64,000 nt of DNA. Source: Roseibium sp. MMSF_3544. GTDB lineage: Bacteria; Pseudomonadota; Alphaproteobacteria; Rhizobiales; Stappiaceae. The stretch covers positions 1-64,000 of the forward strand of contig NZ_JASHKA010000010.1 of assembly GCF_030732845.1 (NCBI RefSeq), given 5' to 3'. Of this stretch, positions 33,417 to 43,782 are shown piece by piece. The first letter of the stretch is position 1. Each line of letters opens with the position of its first letter. The notes beneath the pieces were generated by a model. That model saw nothing but the letters and a program-made list of their open reading frames with translations. It did no database searches and was not told the DNA's origin. Position numbers and translations under genes: made by a program.

Positions 33417-36400
33417 TTATTCGGCCGCGACCATGCCGAGGCGCTGTTCTTCCATTTCCCGAAGCGCTCGGCGGTACTCGACCGGCATCACCTTGACGAA
33501 TTTCGGCCTGTAGGTCGCCCAGTCTTCAAGGATCGCCATGGCCTTGGTCGAGCCGGTCAGCTCCGCATGTTTGCTGAGCAGCTGACGCAGGCGCTCGTCG
33601 TCGTGACGCGTCATGTCAGAAGAGAGGTCGACACGGCCCTTGTGTTCAATGTCACCGCCATGGTGATGGAGTTTTTCCAGAAGATCGTCTTCTTCCGTGA
33701 CGGGTTCCAGATCGACCATGGCAAGATTGCACCGGGTTCCGAAGGAGCCGTCCTCGTCAAGAACGTAGGCAATGCCGCCTGACATGCCGGCTGCAAAGTT
33801 GCGCCCGGTTTTTCCGATCACAACAACGACGCCGCCGGTCATGTATTCGCAGCCGTGGTCGCCAACGCCTTCCACAACCGCGACGGCGCCGGAGTTGCGA
33901 ACCGCAAAGCGTTCGCCCGCGACACCGCGGAAGTAACATTCACCCTCGGTCGCGCCGTATAGCACGGTATTGCCGACGATGATGGAGTCTTCGGCGACGA
34001 TGCGCGTGTTTTCCGGCGGGCGGACGATCAGCTTGCCGCCGGCAAGGCCCTTGCCGACATAGTCGTTGGCATCGCCGGCCAGATCGATCGTGACGCCGCG
34101 CGCGACGAAGGCACCGAATGCCTGGCCTGCTGTGCCCTTCAGATTGATCTTCAGCGTATCGGGTTTCTTCAGGCCCTTGTTGCCGTACCGCTTGGCGATT
34201 TCACCTGACAGCATCGCGCCGACGGATCGGTCGACCGAGCAGATGGTCTCGTCAATGATGGTCGGTTCCTTGCTGTCCAGGGCCGGTTTGGCGGCCGCGA
34301 TCAGGCGCCGGTCGAGAATGTCGACGATCGGGTGATCCTGTGTCTGGGTCCAGCGGGTTTCTTCAGGCTCCGCTTCCGGCTGGAAGAAGATGCGCGTGAA
34401 ATCAAGCCCCTTGGCTTTCCAGTGTTCAATGGCAGCGTTCTTGTCGAGGAAGTCGGAGCGGCCGATCAGGTCGTCCAACTTCTCGATGCCGAGCCCGGCC
34501 ATGATCTCCCGGACTTCCTCTGCGACATAGAAGAAGTAGTTGATCACGTGTTCCGGTGTGCCCTTGAAACGCTTGCGCAGGACGGGGTCCTGGGTCGCGA
34601 TGCCGACCGGGCACGTGTTGAGATGACACTTGCGCATCATCAGACAACCGGCTGCGATCAGCGGTGCCGTCGAGAAACCGAACTCGTCCGCGCCAAGCAG
34701 GGCACCGACGATCACGTCGCGCCCGGTGCGCAGGCCGCCGTCGACCTGCAGGGCAACGCGCGAGCGCAGGCCGTTCAGGACCAGCGTCTGCTGGGTTTCT
34801 GCAAGACCGATTTCCCAGGGGCTGCCGGCGTGCTTGATGGACGTGAGCGGGGATGCACCCGTGCCGCCGTCATAGCCGGAAATCGTGATGTGGTCCGCGC
34901 GGGCCTTGGCAACACCGGCGGCAACGGTGCCGACGCCGACTTCCGAGACCAGCTTGACTGAGATGTCTGCTTCCGGATTGACGTTCTTCAGATCGTAAAT
35001 GAGCTGCGCCAGATCCTCGATGGAGTAAATATCGTGGTGCGGCGGCGGTGAGATCAGGCCGACACCGGGGGTGGAATGGCGCACCTTTGCGATCACCGCA
35101 TCGACCTTGTGACCCGGAAGCTGGCCACCCTCGCCGGGCTTGGCACCCTGGGCAACCTTAATCTGGATCATGTCGGAATTGACGAGATACTCCGTCGTCA
35201 CGCCGAAGCGGCCAGAAGCCACCTGCTTGATTGCTGAACGTCGCGGGTTCATCGACCCGTCGGGCAGCGGATTAAAGCGCTCCGGCTCCTCGCCACCTTC
35301 ACCGGTATTCGACTTGCCGCCGATCTGGTTCATGGCGATCGCAAGGGTGGTGTGCGCCTCGCGGGAAATGGATCCGAACGACATGGCGCCGGTGACGAAC
35401 CGCTTGACGATGCTATCCGCCGATTCAACCTGGTCGAGATCGATGGCAGTACGGCCGATTTCGTCCGCGCCCTTGATACGGAACAGGCCGCGGATCGCGT
35501 AGCGCCCGCTCTTTTCGTTCACCTCCTCGGCGAAGGCACGGTACATGTCCGGCAGCTTCGCGCGCACCGCATGCTGAAGCTGGGCGATGGAATCCGGCGT
35601 CCACATGTGGTTCTCGCCGCGCGTCCGGTAGGCGTATTCTCCGCCGACTTCCAGCGACCGGCGCAGGATTGCAACGTCACCGAAGGCTTCCGAGTGCCTG
35701 AGGACAGTTTCCTCGGCGACTTCCGAAAGACCGATGCCTTCGATCATGGTTGCCGTGCCGAAGAAATACTTCTCGACGAAATCCGAACCGAGACCGACAG
35801 CGTCGAAAATCTGGGCGCCGCAATAGGACTGATAGGTGGAGATGCCCATTTTGGACATGACCTTCAGGATGCCCTTGTCGATCGACTTGATGTAGCGCTC
35901 GACGACCTCGTACTGGTCCACTTCCTCCGGAAAGTCCATTTCCATGTGCATGGAAAGCAGCGTCTCGAAGGCCAGATAGGGGTTGATCGCTTCTGCGCCG
36001 AAACCGGCAAGGACGCAGAAGTGGTGAACTTCGCGCGCTTCGCCCGTTTCCACGACAAGGCCGACGGAGGTGCGCAGGCCCTTGCGGATCAGGTGATGGT
36101 GGACAGCGGCCGTTGCCAGAAGCGCCGGGATCGCAATCCGCGAGCGGCTGATCAGACGGTCGGACAGGATGATGATGTTGTAGCCATCGCGAACAGCCTT
36201 TTCCGCCCGCTGGCAAAGCTCGTCCAGAGCGCCTTCCATTCCGTTGGCGCCTTTCTCGGCGCTGTAGGTGATGTCGAGCGTCTTGGCGGAAAACTGGTTG
36301 TCGGCGATGTCGCCGATCGCGCGGATCTTCTCAAGATCTTCGTTCGTCAGGATCGGCTGACGTACCTCCAGGCGCTTGGAGGTGGATAGGCCCTTCAGAT

Positions 36401-38147
36401 CGAAGATGTTCGGACGCGGACCGATGAAAGACACCAGGCTCATCACCAATTCCTCGCGGATCGGGTCGATCGGCGGGTTGGTGACCTGGGCAAAGTTCTG
36501 CTTGAAATAGGTGTAGAGCGGCTTCGACTTGTCGGAGAGTGCGGAGATCGGCGTATCGGTTCCCATGGAGCCGATGGCCTCCTGGCCGACGGTCGCCATC
36601 GGCGTCATCAGAAGCTTGATGTCTTCCTGGGTGTAGCCGAAGGCCTGCTGACGATCGAGCAGGCTCTCGCCGGCAACCGGTGCGCGCTGGCGCACGCCGG
36701 GCAGGTCTTCCAGAACGATCTGGGTGCGATGCAGCCAGTCTTTGTACGGGTTTGCGGTCGACAGCTCGCGCTTGATCTCATCGTCGGAAACGATGCGGCC
36801 TTCCTCAAGGTCGATGAGCAGCATCTTGCCGGGCTGCAAGCGCCATTTCTGGATGATGCTGCTTTCTTCCACTGGCAGCACACCGACTTCAGAAGACATG
36901 ATGACAAAGTCGTCGTCAGTGACGATGTAGCGCGCAGGGCGCAGGCCGTTGCGGTCCAGGGTTGCGCCGATCTGGCGGCCGTCGGTAAAGGCAACGGCAG
37001 CGGGTCCGTCCCACGGTTCCATCAGCGCTGCATGATATTCATAAAAGGCGCGGCGGTTGTCGTCCATCAGCGGATTGCCGGCCCAAGCTTCCGGGATCAG
37101 CATCATCGCCGCATGGGCAAGCGAGTAGCCGCCCATGGTGAGAAACTCCAGCGCATTGTCGAAACAGGCGGTGTCCGATTGACCTTCGTAAGAAATCGGC
37201 CACAGCTTCGAAATGTCGTCCCCGAGAAGGGCGGAGGACACGGATGCCTGTCTTGCCGCCATCCAGTTGACGTTGCCGCGCAGCGTGTTGATCTCGCCAT
37301 TATGCGCGACCATGCGGTAGGGGTGTGACAGGTCCCAGGACGGGAAAGTGTTGGTCGAGAAGCGCTGGTGAACCAGCGCGAGCGCTGACGTGAACCGCTC
37401 GTCCTTCAGGTCGGCATAATAAGCGCCGAGCTGGTAGGCGAGGAACATGCCCTTGTAGACAATCGTGCGGCTGGACAGCGAGACGATATAGAAACCCTTT
37501 GTGACCGCATCGGTCTCGGCGCGCACCGTGTTGGAGATCACCTTGCGCAAGACATAAAGCCGGCGCTCGAACGCGTCCTGGTCCTCGCTGCTGGTCCGTT
37601 TGATGAAGACCTGGCGGGACACGGGTTCGGTCGCTGCGATATCGGGCGCCTTGGACAGCGAGGAATTGTCGACCGGAACGTCGCGCCAGCCAATCAGCTC
37701 TTCACCTTCGGCCTTGATGACGCGCTCAACGATTTCTTCACATTTGGCGCGCAGCTCGCCGTCCTGCGGCATGAATATAAAGCCGACACCGTAGTGACCG
37801 AATTCCGGAAGCGGTGAGCCCGTCTTTTCCATTTCTTCGGCAAAGAAGCGGTGCGGGATCTGAACCAGCATGCCGGCGCCGTCACCCATGAGCGGATCTG
37901 CGCCAACGGCGCCCCGGTGCGTCAGGTTTTCCAGCACCTGCAGCCCGTCCGCAATGATCTTGTGAGACTTCTCGCCCTTCAGGTGGGTAATAAAACCGAC
38001 ACCACAGGCATCGTGTTCGCGCGACGGATTGTAGAGCCCTTGGTCGGCGGCCGTGCCCAGTCGTTCGGCAAGTGTTGCGGCGGTGGCCTTCGTGTCCACG
38101 CTGCCTGCTTGCATGGCTGTGCTGGTCGTCAGCTCTTTTCTCGTCAT
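33417..38147 (-). CDS. gltB: Glutamate synthase (NADPH) large subunit
   Basis: Alpha subunit of GOGAT, 1576 aa from the ATG at 38147 (GAGGG upstream); the frame stays open to 38306 but that part is not GltB-like. The N-terminal amidotransferase domain begins at C48 (HDACGVGF), so a 47-residue propeptide should be removed to free the catalytic cysteine. A central domain follows, then the FMN-binding synthase domain with a 3Fe-4S cluster (C-x5-C-x4-C in [13 protein letters not shown]) and a C-terminal GXGXG domain with repeated glycine strands. It makes two glutamates from glutamine and 2-oxoglutarate. gltD follows after 87 bp. Confidence 0.96.
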
Positions 38148-38752
38148 GTGCGCCCTCACTGTTAACCCCAGTGGTGCCGTTGCTTGAAGCGTCCGGTTTC
38201 GTTCGGGTCGCATTCCATCAAGAATGCGGCTCGGCGAACCCTGGCATCCACGCCCCGGCTCTGTCGTTGTATTACCGCGCCGGTCTACCAAATCAAACCG
38301 TCGCATTGCCGCAGCGAACCTGCCGCTGCCGAAACCTGTCGTTTCGTATTGTCGCGAATCCTCCCTGGATCCGTCGACCAGTCAGCTTGGCCGCTGCTTC
38401 TTTTATGGTATCCGGCATGTGCCACCGGCGCCGTGATAATTGGGACAGCATACCTGTCCTATTCTAGGCGCGCGGAACATGACAGATTTCACCGCCATGG
38501 GCAAGTGTGTTTCTGTGCGGCGGCAGTATAATTGTTTCACTCAAAAAGTGCCAATTGTCTCGAAAGGTCATTTCTGGTCCGATTTGCGTAAGAAAATTTC
38601 GTTTGTGAAAAACAATCAATGTCTGCTCGCAAAACGGTCACAGGCGTTTGATTTCCTATTTATCAGCAATATGCTCATTTACGTCCTGCGCCTACGCTGC
38701 ACCGGAGGAGCGTTGGCCCCGAAAAGACTTGGTTCGACCAGAGGAGTTCGAA
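38148..38752. other. Divergent region between gltB and the bufferin operon
   Basis: About 600 bp with no convincing gene. A small inverted repeat GGACAG...CTGTCC lies at 38443-38459. The 200 bp before bufA1 are A/T-rich, with TTGATT near 38648 and TATGCT 16 bp later as one weak promoter guess. I do not see a GTAAC...CGAA-type ECF sigma site like that controlling the Caulobacter bufferin operon, but a search with a matrix would be needed to exclude it. Confidence 0.4.
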
Positions 38753-39052
38753 ATGAAACATAAGGCTATGTCTGCGGCCATCGTTGCCGGCGCTGTTGCA
38801 ACCGCTGTTGCAGGTCTTTCCGCCACTGTGCCTGCCCACGCGCAGGCGAAGGAAAAGTGCTACGGTATTTCCCTGAAAGGCCAGAACGATTGTAAGGCCG
38901 GTGCGGGTACGACCTGTGCAGGCACGTCTACTGTCGATTATCAGGGCAACGCCTGGACGCTCGTTCCGAAAGGCACCTGCGTTTCCATGGAACTGCCGGG
39001 CGACCGCAAGGGCTCACTGACCGAACTCGACCGCGACCTGCCGGAAGCCTAA
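38753..39052 (+). CDS. bufA1: Bufferin-1 precursor (DUF2282), copper-binding RiPP
   Basis: Precursor of 99 aa with a GAGGAG ribosome site. A Sec signal peptide (about 1-30, ending PAHA) means the product is exported. The mature part has four cysteines, C36, C47, C55 and C76, in the DUF2282 pattern KCYGI, NDCKAG, CAGTST and GTCVSME. In the bufferins described from Caulobacter, an MNIO enzyme turns core cysteines into thiooxazole-type heterocycles and the peptide then binds copper in the periplasm; I infer the same here. A strong hairpin separates it from the maturation genes, probably raising precursor over enzyme. The alternative family name is HvfA-like. Confidence 0.88.
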
Positions 39053-39090
39053 GATCCGGTTTTGCCCGCTTTACGGGCACCAAACGTTTT

Positions 39091-39120
39091 CAGGCAGGCG
39101 GTCATCATGCCGCCTGCCTG
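39091..39120 (+). other. Strong hairpin (attenuator or mRNA stabiliser) between bufA1 and bufB1
   Basis: CAGGCAGGCGG (39091-39101) and CCGCCTGCCTG (39110-39120) form a perfect 11-bp, G/C-rich stem with an 8-nt loop, followed by AAAGCCTCTTTT. A smaller stem GCCCG/CGGGC lies at 39064-39078. It looks like a leaky terminator that would leave most transcripts with the precursor only. The bufB1 start is 28 bp further on. Confidence 0.7.
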
Positions 39121-39148
39121 AAAGCCTCTTTTCCAGCTGGAGCGTGAC

Positions 39149-40039
39149 ATGCCCTCCCATTCAACCGAACCGACACGAATTGACGCTGCCGTACCGGCGC
39201 GTGCCGGCGCGGGGCTGAAGGCGGACCACGTTCAAGATGTCCTGGATACAGGTGCGGATATCGGCTTTTTCGAAGTTCATGCCGAAAACTACATGGGTGC
39301 GGGCGGTGTGCCGCATCGCCAACTTGAAGCAATCCGGGAGCGGTATCCGTTGTCGCTCCACGGCGTCGGCCTTTCCATAGGCGGCGAACAGCCGCTCGAC
39401 AAGAGCCACCTTCAAAGACTTGCTGACCTCAACAGGCGATATGAGCCGGGCCTCTTTTCCGAGCACCTCGCCTGGTCCACGCATGACACCACGTATTTCA
39501 ACGACCTTCTTCCCGTGCCTTACGACAAGGCGACCCTCGACCGCGTGTGCGATCACATCGACGAGGTCCAAGAGAAGGTCGGACGCAAGATGCTCCTGGA
39601 GAATCCGTCGACCTACGTTGCTTTCGAACAAAGCACGATGAGCGAACTCGACTTCCTCAAGGAAATCACCCGCCGCACGGGGTGCGGACTGCTGCTCGAC
39701 GTCAACAACGTTCATGTGTCGAGCACCAATCATGCCCGCTCGGCGATCGAGTATCTTCAGGACTTTCCCATGGACCGGGTCGGTGAAATCCATCTCGGAG
39801 GCCACGCACCGGACGTTGACGATGCGGGCCGGCCACTGTTGATCGATGCCCATGATCGCGAGGTGGATGACGCAGTCTGGGCGCTCTACGAAACCGTTGT
39901 CGAGCGCAACGGACCAGTGCCGACCCTGATCGAATGGGACAACGATGTGCCGGCATGGCCGGTCCTGCTTGCCGAGGCGCAAGCTGCAGACCGTATTCTC
40001 AGCCAGGAATCCGGCGCGGGTTTCAAGCGTGCGGTCTGA
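39149..40039 (+). CDS. bufB1: MNIO-family (DUF692) bufferin-modifying enzyme
   Basis: Multinuclear non-heme iron oxygenase of 296 aa with a TIM-barrel fold. Metal-ligand candidates in the usual order are E42 and E46 region ([10 protein letters not shown]), H71 (LHGVGLSIG), H106 (SEHLAWS), E151 (LENPSTY), D184 and H189 (DVNNVHV), H215 (EIHLGGH), D233/H235 (DAHDRE) and E262 (IEWDND). In the bufferin system this enzyme oxidises cysteines of BufA1, working with a DUF2063 partner. The stop codon is one base before the bufC1 start, so the two are translationally coupled. It begins with ATG at 39149 after GGAGCG. Confidence 0.92.
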
Positions 40040-40040
40040 G

Positions 40041-40823
40041 ATGAACGTGCCCGAGTTTCCTACAAGAGTTGGTTCCGGCGAATTTGGTCAGGCGATCTGG
40101 GATCCGGAAGCCGAGACACCGTCCGGATTGACCGGCCCGGATGGTCTTACCGCTCCGAAACGTTTCAGCGTCTACCGCAACAACGTCATCGTCAGCCTCA
40201 GCGAGGCGCTGGAGCAGACTTTTCCGGCGATCCGAAATCTGTTGGGCGAAGACTACTTCAAGGCCCTTGCGAGAGCCTTCGTTGTTCGCCATCCGCCGAC
40301 ATCACCCGTGTTGTTGTGGTACGGGGCGGAGTTTGCAGGCTTTATAGAAGCGTTTCCCCCGCTCGAGGCTTATCCGTATCTCGCGGACGTGGCGCGGGTC
40401 GAATGGGCCTGGTTGCAATCCTACCACGCTGCTGATGCCGCACCCATGGACCCTGCCGCGCTCGGTTCTGTCGATCCGGAGGCTCTTGGAACAGTCCGGT
40501 TCGAGAAGCATCCCGCGACAGACATGGTTGTCTCCCGTTGGCCGGTCTGGGACCTGATGCGTGTGAACAGGTTCGAGCCCGATGCCGAAATCGACGTTGA
40601 TCTTGAAGCTTCGCAGTCCGTGCTGATCACGCGGCCGGACTACGACGTCAATCTTTTGTTGCTGCGCCCGGGAGGAGACGTGTTCTTGAACGCGCTTCTA
40701 AGCGGTGCAATGCTCGGTGAAGCTGCTGCATCTGCGCAAGCTCAGGTCGAGGAATTTTCATTGTCCGATTGTCTGTCGGATTGTCTTTCAAACGGTGCAT
40801 TTAAGGATCTCGTCACGGCTTGA
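40041..40823 (+). CDS. bufC1: DUF2063 partner of the MNIO enzyme (BufC/HvfC)
   Basis: Protein of 260 aa, DUF2063. The N-terminal domain contains RFSVYRNNVIVSLSEALEQTFPAI, the family's most recognisable stretch, and YLADVARVEWA. It ends with a repeated DCLSDCLS. Partner proteins of this family recruit the precursor peptide to the MNIO enzyme. It starts one base after bufB1; the open frame that runs further upstream inside bufB1 is not used. A 49-bp gap with a GGGGG ribosome site follows before the DoxX gene. Confidence 0.92.
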   Translation: MNVPEFPTRVGSGEFGQAIWDPEAETPSGLTGPDGLTAPKRFSVYRNNVIVSLSEALEQTFPAIRNLLGEDYFKALARAFVVRHPPTSPVLLWYGAEFAGFIEAFPPLEAYPYLADVARVEWAWLQSYHAADAAPMDPAALGSVDPEALGTVRFEKHPATDMVVSRWPVWDLMRVNRFEPDAEIDVDLEASQSVLITRPDYDVNLLLLRPGGDVFLNALLSGAMLGEAAASAQAQVEEFSLSDCLSDCLSNGAFKDLVTA

Positions 40824-40872
40824 ACTTATAAAAGCCTGGGGTCTTCGATTGGAAAGGGAAAGGGGGACTTAA

Positions 40873-41457
40873 ATGGGTGCTCTCATCGGCTTCTTCGTGA
40901 GATTGTACACTGCCGTTTTCGGTGGACTTGAGCGGATTACCAATGGCTGGTTTCTCGGACTTGCGGCACGCCTGATCTTTGCGGCCGTTCTGCTGCAGTT
41001 CTTCCTCAATTCCGCTATGACGAAGATCGGCGGAAGCATCATGAACATCTTCACGCCGACGGCCGGTGCCTACGCCCAGATGTTTCCCCAGCTTATGGAA
41101 CAGGTGAGCTACGACACCAGCCAGATCGAGTATTTCCCCTACGGCCTGATTGTGTTGCTGGGTACATGGGGTGAGTTCATTCTGCCTGTTCTTGTCGTGG
41201 TCGGCCTTTTTACCCGGGCTGCCAGCGTTGGCATGATTATCTTCATTGGCGTCATGACTTATGTCGACATTACCGGGCATGGCCTTGATGCGAAGTCCAT
41301 TGGCGCCTTCTTCGACGGTGATCCTTACGGGATTGTCTCCGACGATCGCCTGCTCTGGGTTTTCCTGCTGCTGGTGCCGGTGCTCAAGGGACCAGGTGTG
41401 ATTTCGCTGGATTGGCTGCTCGGTCGCTATTACCGCAAGCAGGAAATGTATTACTGA
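40873..41457 (+). CDS. bufD1: DoxX-family membrane protein of the bufferin operon
   Basis: Inner-membrane protein of 194 aa, DoxX/HvfX-like, with about four hydrophobic helices (LAARLIFAAVLLQFFLNSAMTK is typical of the first). DoxX genes accompany many bufferin operons (BufD); their role is unclear, with redox or copper-related functions proposed. Its position right behind bufC1 on the same strand, with the same operon order as in Caulobacter, is the main argument for the assignment. A further gene begins 46 bp downstream. Confidence 0.85.
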   Translation: MGALIGFFVRLYTAVFGGLERITNGWFLGLAARLIFAAVLLQFFLNSAMTKIGGSIMNIFTPTAGAYAQMFPQLMEQVSYDTSQIEYFPYGLIVLLGTWGEFILPVLVVVGLFTRAASVGMIIFIGVMTYVDITGHGLDAKSIGAFFDGDPYGIVSDDRLLWVFLLLVPVLKGPGVISLDWLLGRYYRKQEMYY

Positions 41458-41502
41458 GAGATTCAGGTTGCCGGGTGAGATGCCAACTGGTTAAACCGGC
41501 AC

Positions 41503-42561
41503 ATGATTTTCGCAAGCGATAACTGGGCGGGTGCGGCTCCGGCGGTGATGTCGGCACTGACCCGCCATAACACCGGGTTTACGCCGGCTTACGGTAAAGA
41601 CCCGCTCACCGAAAGCGTCGAACGCAGCTTCAACGACATATTCGAGCGGGACGTCGCCGTCTTTTTTGTGGCGACGGGAACAGCTGCAAACGCGCTTGCC
41701 CTTGCAGCTTATGCCAGGCCGGGCGGCGCCGTTTTCTGCCATCGCGGCAGCCATATCAATGTTGACGAATGCAACTGTCCGGAGTTCATGACCAGCGGCA
41801 ACAAGCTCGTCGGCATTCCAGGAGCCTCGGGCAAACTGACGGCTGCATCGCTGCAGGATGCCATGTCGGCCTTTCCAGATGGTGTGGTGATGCATGGGCA
41901 AGTCGCATCCGTTTCGATCAGCCAGGCGACAGAGTGCGGAACGGTCTATTCCATCGGTGAAATCGAAGCGATTGCAGAGATCGCACATTCGCGGTCCGTC
42001 CCGCTTCACATGGACGGCGCAAGGTTTACCAATGCGCTTGTTACGCTCGGCTGCACACCAGCGGAGATGACGTGGAAGGCCGGTGTCGACGTTTTGTCAT
42101 TCGGAGGCACCAAGAACGGCTGCTGGTGCGCAGAAGCCGTGGTCTTTTTCGATCCGGAGAAAGCCAGGGATTTTGAATATTTTCGCAAGAGAGCCGGGCA
42201 TCTTTTCTCCAAAAGCCGTTTCGTGGCGGCCCAGTTCGATGGCTTTTTTGAGAACGACAGCTGGCTCGCGACGGCGGCGCATGCCAACACCATGGCCAAC
42301 AGGCTGTCGGATGGCATAGCGTCAATAGGCGGACGTACGGCATGGCCGGTCGAAGCCAATGAGCTCTTTCCGATCCTAAAACGCACCCAGTTCGACGATC
42401 TCAAGGCTGCGGGCGCCCATATCTACGAATGGCCTGCCGACGACGTGTCGGACAATGTCGCGCCAACTGGCGACGAAGTCTGTTTTCGAATGGTGACGAG
42501 CTACGCAACGACCGACCAGGACGTTGACGCGTTTTTGGAAGCGCTTGCCAGGACGGGATGA
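41503..42561 (+). CDS. Low-specificity L-threonine aldolase-like PLP enzyme
   Basis: Fold-type I PLP enzyme of 352 aa, beta-eliminating-lyase family, which as threonine aldolase cleaves L-threonine or L-allo-threonine to glycine and acetaldehyde. It starts MIFASDNWAGAAP and has GTAANALAL, HMDGARFTNAL (with the PLP-binding aspartate) and the Schiff-base lysine in SFGGTKNGC. The gene lies 46 bp after bufD1 on the same strand and may be read through from it, though no functional link to copper handling is known. A terminator follows at 42585. Confidence 0.88.
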   Translation: MIFASDNWAGAAPAVMSALTRHNTGFTPAYGKDPLTESVERSFNDIFERDVAVFFVATGTAANALALAAYARPGGAVFCHRGSHINVDECNCPEFMTSGNKLVGIPGASGKLTAASLQDAMSAFPDGVVMHGQVASVSISQATECGTVYSIGEIEAIAEIAHSRSVPLHMDGARFTNALVTLGCTPAEMTWKAGVDVLSFGGTKNGCWCAEAVVFFDPEKARDFEYFRKRAGHLFSKSRFVAAQFDGFFENDSWLATAAHANTMANRLSDGIASIGGRTAWPVEANELFPILKRTQFDDLKAAGAHIYEWPADDVSDNVAPTGDEVCFRMVTSYATTDQDVDAFLEALARTG

Positions 42562-42641: not shown

Positions 42642-43088
42642 TTAATGAGCTTTGGATTCGATCTGCTTGGACGCGCCGGATGCGATTTCGATCTTGCGCG
42701 GTTTCATGGCTTCGGGAATTTCCCGGACCAGATCAACATGCAGCAGGCCGTTTTCCAGGCTGGCACCGTCAACGCGGACGTGCTCGGCGATCTGGAAGCG
42801 GCGCTCGAATGTGCGCGATGCGATGCCGCGGTAAAGAATTTCCTTGTCGGTGTCTTCGTCCGCTTTTTCACCCTTGATCGTCAGCACATGTTCCTTGGCC
42901 TCGACCGACAATTCGGCGTCGGTGAAGCCGGCAACGGCCATCGTGATGCGATAGGCGTTTTCGCCGGTGCGTTCGATGTTGTAGGGCGGGTAAGTCGGGG
43001 TGTCGTTGCCGGCGGTATCCAGCATCGAGAAGAGACGGTCAAAACCGACGGTTGACCGGTATAGGGGAGAGAAGTCCAAGTGACGCAT
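42642..43088 (-). CDS. Small heat-shock protein (Hsp20/IbpA family)
   Basis: ATP-independent holdase chaperone of 148 aa. The alpha-crystallin domain covers about 36-128 (YPPYNIERTGENAYRITMAVAGF, ELSVEAKEHVLTIKGEK, RGIASRTFERRFQIAEHV, LENGLLHVDLVREIPE). The C-terminal I-x-I/V type anchor appears as KIEIAS. The leader at 43089-43165 has the hallmarks of a ROSE-type RNA thermometer, so translation is probably heat-induced. The terminator at 42585 closes the transcript. Confidence 0.93.
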   Translation of the reverse strand: MRHLDFSPLYRSTVGFDRLFSMLDTAGNDTPTYPPYNIERTGENAYRITMAVAGFTDAELSVEAKEHVLTIKGEKADEDTDKEILYRGIASRTFERRFQIAEHVRVDGASLENGLLHVDLVREIPEAMKPRKIEIASGASKQIESKAH

Positions 43089-43165: not shown

Positions 43166-43350
43166 ACGGCTTGCAGACCCGATTGGCGCCTGCACGGTTG
43201 AGGTGGGAATTGCGGAATTTAATTTCAAGAGCAATCAGCTCCTGAGATGAACACCAGATGAACGGAGCCTTCCGTTTGGGTTCAAGCGGTGTGGTGCATC
43301 TTCTGATCAACGTCAGCGCAGCGTTGGCGGTCAGATCAGGAGACATTGTT

Positions 43351-43782
43351 ATGTTTGTTAAGACTTCAGCACTTTCCGCGTCGATCGCAGGAGCCATCAT
43401 GCTGGCTTCCGTCGGTTTTAGTTCTTCCGCGTCCGCTGCTCCGATTGCAGCAGCTAAGCAGCTTCAGGCACCGCAGGATGCACCAATTGTTCAGGTCCAT
43501 CACAAGAAAAAGGGCTACGGCAAGCACAAGGGCAATGGCAAAGGCTGGAAGGGTGGCCATGGCGGCGGTTACTACACCCTGGGTCCGCGTCAGATTCGCC
43601 GTAGCCTGCGTCATCGTGGTTTCTACAAGATCAGGATCATCGACCGTCGCGGCCCTGTCTACGTCGTCAAGGCCATTGGTTGGCGCGGTATGCCGGTCCG
43701 GCTGGTTGTCGATGCAAGGACCGCTCACATTGTGCGTAGCCGCCCGATCGGACATGGCGTCTACTTCCAGTACCGCTGGTAA
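43351..43782 (+). CDS. Secreted His/Lys/Gly-rich protein with PepSY-like C-terminus
   Basis: Protein of 143 aa from the ATG at 43351 (AGGAGA upstream). A signal peptide (about 1-29, ending ASA) is followed by a low-complexity basic segment at about 50-73 made of His, Lys and Gly (HHKKKGYGKHKG, then GHGGG). The C-terminal ~65 residues (RQIRRSLRHRGFYKIRIIDRRGPVY and VDARTAHIVRSRPI) have the strand pattern of a PepSY-like domain. The histidines could bind metal, but this is only suggestive. It is monocistronic, with a clear terminator at 43803. Confidence 0.7.
   Translation: MFVKTSALSASIAGAIMLASVGFSSSASAAPIAAAKQLQAPQDAPIVQVHHKKKGYGKHKGNGKGWKGGHGGGYYTLGPRQIRRSLRHRGFYKIRIIDRRGPVYVVKAIGWRGMPVRLVVDARTAHIVRSRPIGHGVYFQYRW

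Follow-up and report, generated by a model that had tools for sequence, protein, structure and literature searches.

A bufferin-1 operon in Roseibium sp. MMSF_3544 with a conserved upstream element and a hairpin behind its precursor gene

A stretch of 64,000 nucleotides from Roseibium sp. MMSF_3544 (contig NZ_JASHKA010000010.1, positions 1 to 64,000), here called the window, carries at positions 38753-41457 the genes bufA1, bufB, bufC and bufD on one strand and in the order A-B-C-D. Very probably these genes form a complete and apparently vertically inherited bufferin-1 operon, the product of which would, by homology, be a copper-binding peptide; the operon would be switched via a conserved element upstream of bufA and not by the sigma factor SigF, and a hairpin behind bufA would keep the precursor mRNA above the maturase mRNA. 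The operon itself is of a known kind, and it is its control, i.e., the element and the hairpin, that may be new.

Gene content of the operon

The operon consists of the following genes:

38753..39052, + strand: bufA1, bufferin-1 precursor, 99 residues (Pfam DUF2282, E 3e-25, 88.4 bits, cut-off 22.4)
39149..40039, + strand: bufB, MNIO maturase, 296 residues (Pfam MbnB_TglH_ChrH, E 7.4e-107, 356.9 bits)
40041..40823, + strand: bufC, partner with DUF2063 and RRE-type domains (PME type 1), 260 residues (Pfam DUF2063, E 9e-26, 90.4 bits)
40873..41457, + strand: bufD, divergent DoxX-family membrane protein, 194 residues (Pfam DoxX, 22.3 bits, gathering score 23.6)

The intergenic gaps are 96 nt (A-B), 1 nt (B-C) and 49 nt (C-D). 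The start of bufC at 40041, 1 nt past the bufB stop, was placed from homologues; the open frame itself spans 39945-40823. For comparison 151 further loci were fetched, giving 152 loci with 15 exact duplicates. They were chosen by BufB similarity (best 80 of 588 confirmed) or by DUF2282, and the locus counts given here describe this selected set. Because 148 of the 152 loci hold all four genes on one strand, the arrangement is not a matter of chance. The non-conforming loci have no same-strand bufD in the stretch (L068, L075 and L101) or no bufA (L098). The A-B-C-D order departs in L087, through overlapping stop-to-stop frames, and in L172, where bufA is broken, while in L054 and L065 the match to D lies well downstream of C.

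A first-pass annotation of this DNA had described a DUF2282 precursor with a signal peptide and four cysteines, an MNIO (DUF692) enzyme, a DUF2063 partner and a DoxX-family membrane protein in bufferin-1 order. The complete four-gene set confirms, from sequence, that this observation was correct and that the system is a standard bufferin-1 system. The precursor is identified by its DUF2282 score and its cysteines (Cys36, Cys47, Cys55 and Cys76), the enzyme by a score of 388.4 bits against the curated NCBIfam model for bufferin maturases (MNIO_BufB, cut-off 310), and the partner by its Pfam domain and predicted fold; the gene order, too, is as had been described. Two features stand on less firm ground. 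A putative Sec signal peptide of approximately residues 1-30 was read by eye, with a basic start, a hydrophobic stretch and an AHA (AxA-type) site near residue 30, and without a lipobox. For BufD the position in the operon is conserved, but the DoxX score falls just below the gathering score.

Exactly four cysteines are found in 133 of the 136 non-duplicate precursor frames, the exceptions being L076 (seven), L167 (five) and L172 (two). L172 (genome G003) is also the one family genome where the DUF2282 gene is split between different reading frames, pointing to a decayed precursor or an assembly error. L049 and L083 carry tandem DUF2282-like frames upstream of bufB, i.e., two possible precursors per maturase.

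BufB aligns with the solved MNIO structure 3bww (E 4.8e-39), as well as with MbnB and the MNIO chain in the TglHI structures. His71, His106, Glu151, Asp184, His215, Asp233, His235 and Glu262 are what we take to be the candidate metal ligands, and the residues at these positions are identical in 3bww. BufC has no relative among the PDB sequences at E 0.1 or better. Its AlphaFold model, with a predicted local distance difference test score (pLDDT) of 94.0 and a predicted template modelling score of 0.88, has three predicted fold matches in the PDB at E 0.001 or better, TglI (8hci and 8hi7) and NGO1945 (3dee). NGO1945 typifies the MNIO partners that combine a DUF2063 with an RRE-type domain, and TglH has TglI as its partner (PMC12452194; all sources are cited from the parts of their text that were available). 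In L070, L085, L089 and L110 the gap between bufB and bufC measures approximately 450-800 nt, leaving space for an inserted gene, possibly the 'adjamnio-VI' of PMC12452194.

A few observations weigh against the assignment. The helical model of BufD is of moderate confidence (pLDDT 80.9) and has no PDB fold match at E 0.001 or better, and in addition to its DoxX score BufD falls below the cut-off of the HvfX model (25.2 against 80). BufA scores 23.8 with the NCBIfam BufA2 model (cut-off 60), though this is expected of a Buf1 precursor.

A conserved element upstream of bufA

38637..38664, + strand: conserved upstream element GTCACAGGCGTTTGATTTCCTATTTATC, from the upstream alignment of 71 loci of the same family, with a position weight matrix (PWM) built from 68 of them

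The distance from the first base of the element to the bufA start codon is 116 bp. The 71 aligned upstream regions give the consensus GTMAC-N5-TTTGATTTCCYATTKA, and within the element the starts of GTCAC, TTGAT and TTTAT are spaced 11 bp. In 42 of the 45 genomes of the genus a copy of its 24-bp core with 0-1 mismatch lies a short way upstream of bufA. When up to two mismatches are allowed these 45 genomes contain 47 matches, comprising the 42 buf sites and five elsewhere; the latter all carry two mismatches and are near noise, the reversed-pattern control giving three. The element is nearly unique per genus genome and is located at the buf site. Two genus genomes (G040 and G048) do not match the core, and G062 has unrelated matches only. 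Across the family, TTGATTT is found within 300 bp in 66 of the 71 loci.

A search of the window's own genome (G000) with a looser core yields five matches, four of them with two mismatches, against none for the reversed control. These four, at G000:C1:10151, C3:81141, C28:13602 and C33:386227, represent possible further targets. The second element match in the genome lies in what we take, from the translations, to be a cell-wall gene cluster.

An Rfam scan of positions 38300-41600 returned a single match, mir-314, at 23.6 bits (gathering score 69). The element is not described in the literature examined, of which coverage was partial; the word 'promoter' does not occur in the available text of PMC12452194, PMC12668002 and PMC12538549.

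OmpR-family factors often recognise direct repeats with approximately 10 bp between half-site starts (PMC9275681). Because the 11-bp spacing of the element recalls such repeats, a two-component system is the leading guess from the sequence, i.e., the element may be read by a response regulator of the OmpR/PhoB type. Several observations speak against such a site. The half-sites GTCAC and TTGAT share two of five letters, a likeness spotted after the fact. TTGATTT is missing within 300 bp in five of the 71 family loci (L040, L164, L165, L166 and L176), one of which has a SigF motif. The third half-site, at +11, is weaker outside the family, being found in 58 of 66 family loci and in 12 of 18 outside loci with conserved neighbours (syntenic outsiders), and the first, at -11, is found in 60 of 66 versus nine of 18. 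As a candidate reader CenR is a lead only, because its two published motifs differ: TGA-N8-TGA in Rhodobacter (PMC9275681) and AgTCAC--C--cGTgAct in Sinorhizobium (PMC9561847). TGA-N8-TGA is present in 31 of the 66 family elements, the window's own not being among them, as its third half-site has TTA and not TGA. For ChvI the available text of PMC9731437, PMC9731502, PMC3687685 and PMC10659215 provides no motif for comparison.

Alternatively, the element could be the promoter of an alternative sigma factor instead of a response-regulator binding site, a possibility that we regard with some doubt. GTMAC resembles the -35 region of the extracytoplasmic function (ECF) group ECF16, which is GTAACC for SigF (PMC3511200) and GTAACA for RpoE7 (PMC6180224), and the CA dinucleotide at positions 40-41 in the frame of the element, kept in 63 and 68 of the 71 loci, resembles a start site. 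However, the best-conserved part, TTTGATTTCC, would then fall in the spacer, there is no conserved -10 region, and the near-unique occurrence of the element in each genome also argues against a promoter of this kind, as does the absence of NrsF, the one anti-sigma factor that the search covered.

The hairpin between bufA and bufB

39086..39125, + strand: intercistronic hairpin with a 17-bp stem, a 6-nt loop and a weak T-tract (four T in a row)

The 96-nt gap between bufA and bufB folds with -49.4 kcal/mol (z -6.46), and none of 200 shuffled sequences folds as well. The start of bufB lies 23 nt past the hairpin. A dispersed repeat was considered and rejected, the exact 9-bp inner stem sequence occurring once in the genome. 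Across the loci, the 110-nt stretch that follows the bufA stop shows z < -2 in 69 of 134 and a stem score of at least 25 in 63 of 134. The corresponding numbers are 16 and 2 of 134 upstream of bufA, 7 and 1 of 134 inside bufB, 7 and 2 of 134 after bufB, 8 and 3 of 133 after bufC, and 53 and 27 of 130 after bufD. The hairpins are concentrated after the precursor gene and, to a lesser degree, at the end of the operon.

Covariation support for the stem is modest. In 19 chosen genus sequences 95.2% of the cells are paired, four cells show a two-sided change, and the covariation score is 0.166 compared with 0.121 in shuffles. Against a conserved regulatory stem it must be noted that the two-sided changes are confined to two of the 12 pairs, that two of the five measures are reached by 56 of 500 shuffles, and that the stem score stays below 25 in 71 of the 134 loci. 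Moreover, only 14 of the 71 stems with a score of at least 22 after bufA have at least five T among the following 9 nt, versus 14 of 37 after bufD. For most of the 71 loci this low T content is easier to reconcile with a stem involved in processing or in protecting a 3' end than with a terminator. Perhaps the hairpin makes the precursor exceed the maturase.

It is improbable that the hairpin acts as a full terminator and confines the upstream transcript to bufA, with bufBCD expressed from a promoter of their own. In the window the strong stem followed by four T in a row is indeed flagged as terminator-like, but the 23 nt between hairpin and bufB leave scant room for a promoter, and 57 of the 71 stems scoring at least 22 have fewer than five T in the next 9 nt. 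In the partly covered literature the hairpin is not described: the words 'terminator' and 'hairpin' are absent from the available text of PMC12452194, PMC3511200, PMC5413113, PMC12538549, PMC12668002 and PMC8224329. Literature searches, likewise of partial coverage, returned nothing on terminators between precursor and maturase genes of MNIO-modified RiPPs (ribosomally synthesized and post-translationally modified peptides), and no bufferin title among the listed matches for RiPP stem-loops or attenuators.

Distribution and genomic context

The genome of 6.88 Mb contains a single DUF2282 gene and a single MNIO gene, both at the window locus. DUF2282 is found in 72 of the 87 genomes of the same family, and among the best 80 of 588 confirmed loci the closest has 83% identity to BufB. 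The operon is flanked by:

33417..38306, - strand: glutamate synthase-like open reading frame, presumably gltB, divergent; outside the system, syntenic marker
41503..42561, + strand: pyridoxal phosphate-dependent aldolase-like gene (Pfam Beta_elim_lyase); probably outside the system
42642..43088, - strand: HSP20 small heat-shock protein (Pfam/NCBIfam); flank, syntenic marker

With duplicates excluded, 69 of the 72 family loci have a gltB relative upstream of buf, versus 16 of 65 loci outside the family, and an HSP20 gene is found downstream in 56 of 72 versus 19 of 65, in stretches that do not always extend to the gltB or HSP20 positions. The aldolase-like gene is downstream in 69 of 72 family loci; elsewhere it is upstream in 15 and downstream in one of 65. 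Because the gltB and HSP20 synteny is kept across the family loci, the buf locus looks old and vertically inherited. A mobile origin is not favoured, given the gltB relative upstream in those 69 family loci.

Two further features were observed in this region. At 38525-38554 on the - strand a promoter-like sequence, TTGGCA-18-TATACT, is directed towards the gltB-like gene (one found, 1.9 expected in shuffles) and lies within a further conserved block of the intergenic region that gltB and buf share. At 43345-43782 on the + strand a small secreted-looking protein with a Gly/Lys/His-rich stretch, which could bind metal, has no Pfam or NCBIfam match at E 0.001.

Two regulatory classes

The Caulobacter buf operon belongs to the SigF regulon, with the promoter GTAACC-N16-CGAA and the anti-sigma factor NrsF (PMC3511200, PMC8224329). 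NrsF (PF06532) has no match in the genome of the window and is absent from 86 of the 87 family genomes, and a promoter of this type (KTAACN-N15-17-CGWW) is not found within 300 bp upstream of the window bufA. SigF-NrsF control of the window operon is unsupported. With NrsF missing and a promoter region of a different type, the copper induction known from Caulobacter is not simply transferable.

A loose SigF-type pattern is found within 300 bp in one of the 71 family loci, L164, which stems from the NrsF-bearing genome. In G084, the sole family genome with NrsF, this gene lies approximately 3 kb downstream of DUF2282, and the conserved element is absent, with GTAACG-N16-CGAA in its place. In the family genus represented by G073-G086, DUF2282 occurs in one of 14 genomes, the one with NrsF near the operon. 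For this genus the sequences suggest that the ancestral buf locus was lost and a SigF-type one gained.

Outside the family the test for NrsF covered 36 of the 65 loci. NrsF is present in 13 of these, 11 of which have a SigF-type motif (loose pattern, 300 bp) and one TTGATTT. Among the 19 NrsF-negative syntenic outsiders TTGATTT is found in 18 and a SigF-like match in one; 'syntenic' was assigned by hand to loci with one or more of the neighbours gltB, aldolase, HSP20 and hydrolase in the expected place (for L058 this was gltB alone, for L069 HSP20 plus hydrolase). The remaining four NrsF-negative loci have neither motif. The SigF-type and TTGATTT motifs are distributed in a near-exclusive manner. 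NrsF occurs in none of the 13 outside loci with a family PWM score above zero versus 13 of the 23 others (one-sided hypergeometric 5e-4, uncorrected for common descent and with the threshold set after the scores were seen). A point against this reading is that the association of promoter and NrsF does not reflect independent events, since relatives share ancestry. The DUF692/DUF2063 operon of Sinorhizobium meliloti, which depends on RpoE7 (ECF16) with a GTAACA...CGAA promoter, lies on pSymB and is missing in some strains (PMC6180224), fits two separate regulatory classes as an independent match.

We cautiously favour the view that the Buf1 operons of the Hyphomicrobiales fall into two such classes, accessory operons driven by ECF16 factors (SigF-NrsF, RpoE7) versus an ancestral gltB-buf-HSP20 locus. 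The latter would be switched by a regulator, probably of a two-component system, via RTMAC-N6-TTGATTTCC-N2-TTKA, with the hairpin setting the ratio of precursor to maturase.

Proposed function

The gene set, the conservation of the maturase residues, the predicted fold of the partner, the synteny and the conservation of the operon are evident at the level of sequence; the cysteine chemistry and the copper function we infer from homology and the literature. By homology to the Caulobacter bufferin, BufA1 would be synthesised with a Sec signal peptide, and BufB, guided by the DUF2063/RRE partner BufC, would oxidise its two central cysteines to thiooxazoles. BufA1 would be exported to the periplasm, where its first and last cysteines would form a disulphide and the modified residues would bind excess copper; BufD would act as a membrane accessory. 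In place of SigF-NrsF, a factor that reads 38637-38664 would switch expression, and through partial termination or protection of the 3' end the hairpin after bufA would keep the precursor mRNA above the maturase mRNA. The first-pass annotation had let the cysteines in general become thiooxazole-like copper ligands. This has to be narrowed, as in the known bufferin the central cysteines alone are modified and the first and last form a disulphide (PMC12452194).

That the MNIO-modified peptide of the operon serves mainly some other purpose (gold, mercury, chromium, or oxidative or envelope stress), with copper being secondary, seems unlikely to us. The Legionella gig operon does respond to gold besides copper (PMC5413113), the Caulobacter SigF regulon is induced by chromium and cadmium (PMC3511200, PMC8224329), MerC-bufferin fusions exist (PMC12452194), and the window promoter region, unlike the copper-induced SigF one, could answer another stress. 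However, both the precursor and the maturase closely resemble the bufferin families, and no mercury or other metal-resistance family is present among the eight neighbourhood proteins scanned against Pfam.

The window operon adds one member to a large known family. Relatives without NrsF have kept it, together with the element upstream, at a chromosomal position that is conserved, and the identity of the reader of this element would tell which signal these bacteria use, copper or a broader envelope stress. If the reading of two classes is true, bufferins are wired to different sensors in different lineages. The hairpin, in turn, bears on how substrate could come to outnumber enzyme in a RiPP operon.

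Comparison with known systems

BufB is related to MbnB of the methanobactin system (MbnABC) within the MNIO family, but scores 51.2 bits with the MbnB model (cut-off 325), and methanobactin is a copper-acquisition chalkophore with another leader and partner (PMC12452194). In the oxazolins or captophorins (HvfABC-HvfX; fontiphorin) an MNIO enzyme and a DUF2063 partner install 5-thiooxazoles, with DoxX neighbours, and thiooxazole peptides are reported to absorb near 305 nm (PMC12668002). The window precursor, in contrast, is of the DUF2282 type and has no EGKCG repeat, and the HvfB, HvfC and HvfX models remain below their cut-offs. The metal-inducible gig operons of Cupriavidus metallidurans and Legionella pneumophila comprise the same gene families (PMC5413113, PMC13192273), but Legionella has several copies, one of them on an integrative element, whereas the window locus is a single syntenic copy. 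The S. meliloti operon SMb20530-20527 (RpoE7-EcfR7, ECF16) likewise has DUF692 followed by DUF2063, preceded by a gene for a small protein annotated as a membrane protein; being located on pSymB, absent from some strains and beside its own ECF16 sigma factor, it differs from the window operon with its chromosomal synteny and without NrsF (PMC6180224).

The closest counterpart is CC3254-CC3257 of Caulobacter crescentus/vibrioides, with the same domains in the same order (DUF2282, DUF692, DUF2063 and DoxX; PMC3511200). BufD is longer in the window, 194 residues as compared with 150 (PMC3511200), and the window has neither NrsF nor a GTAACC-N16-CGAA-type motif within 300 bp, the other conserved element being present instead. 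The Caulobacter bufferin shares the four-cysteine precursor, Sec export and maturation by MNIO and a DUF2063-RRE partner (PMC12452194), a route of export and maturation that the window sequence predicts for BufA1 as well.

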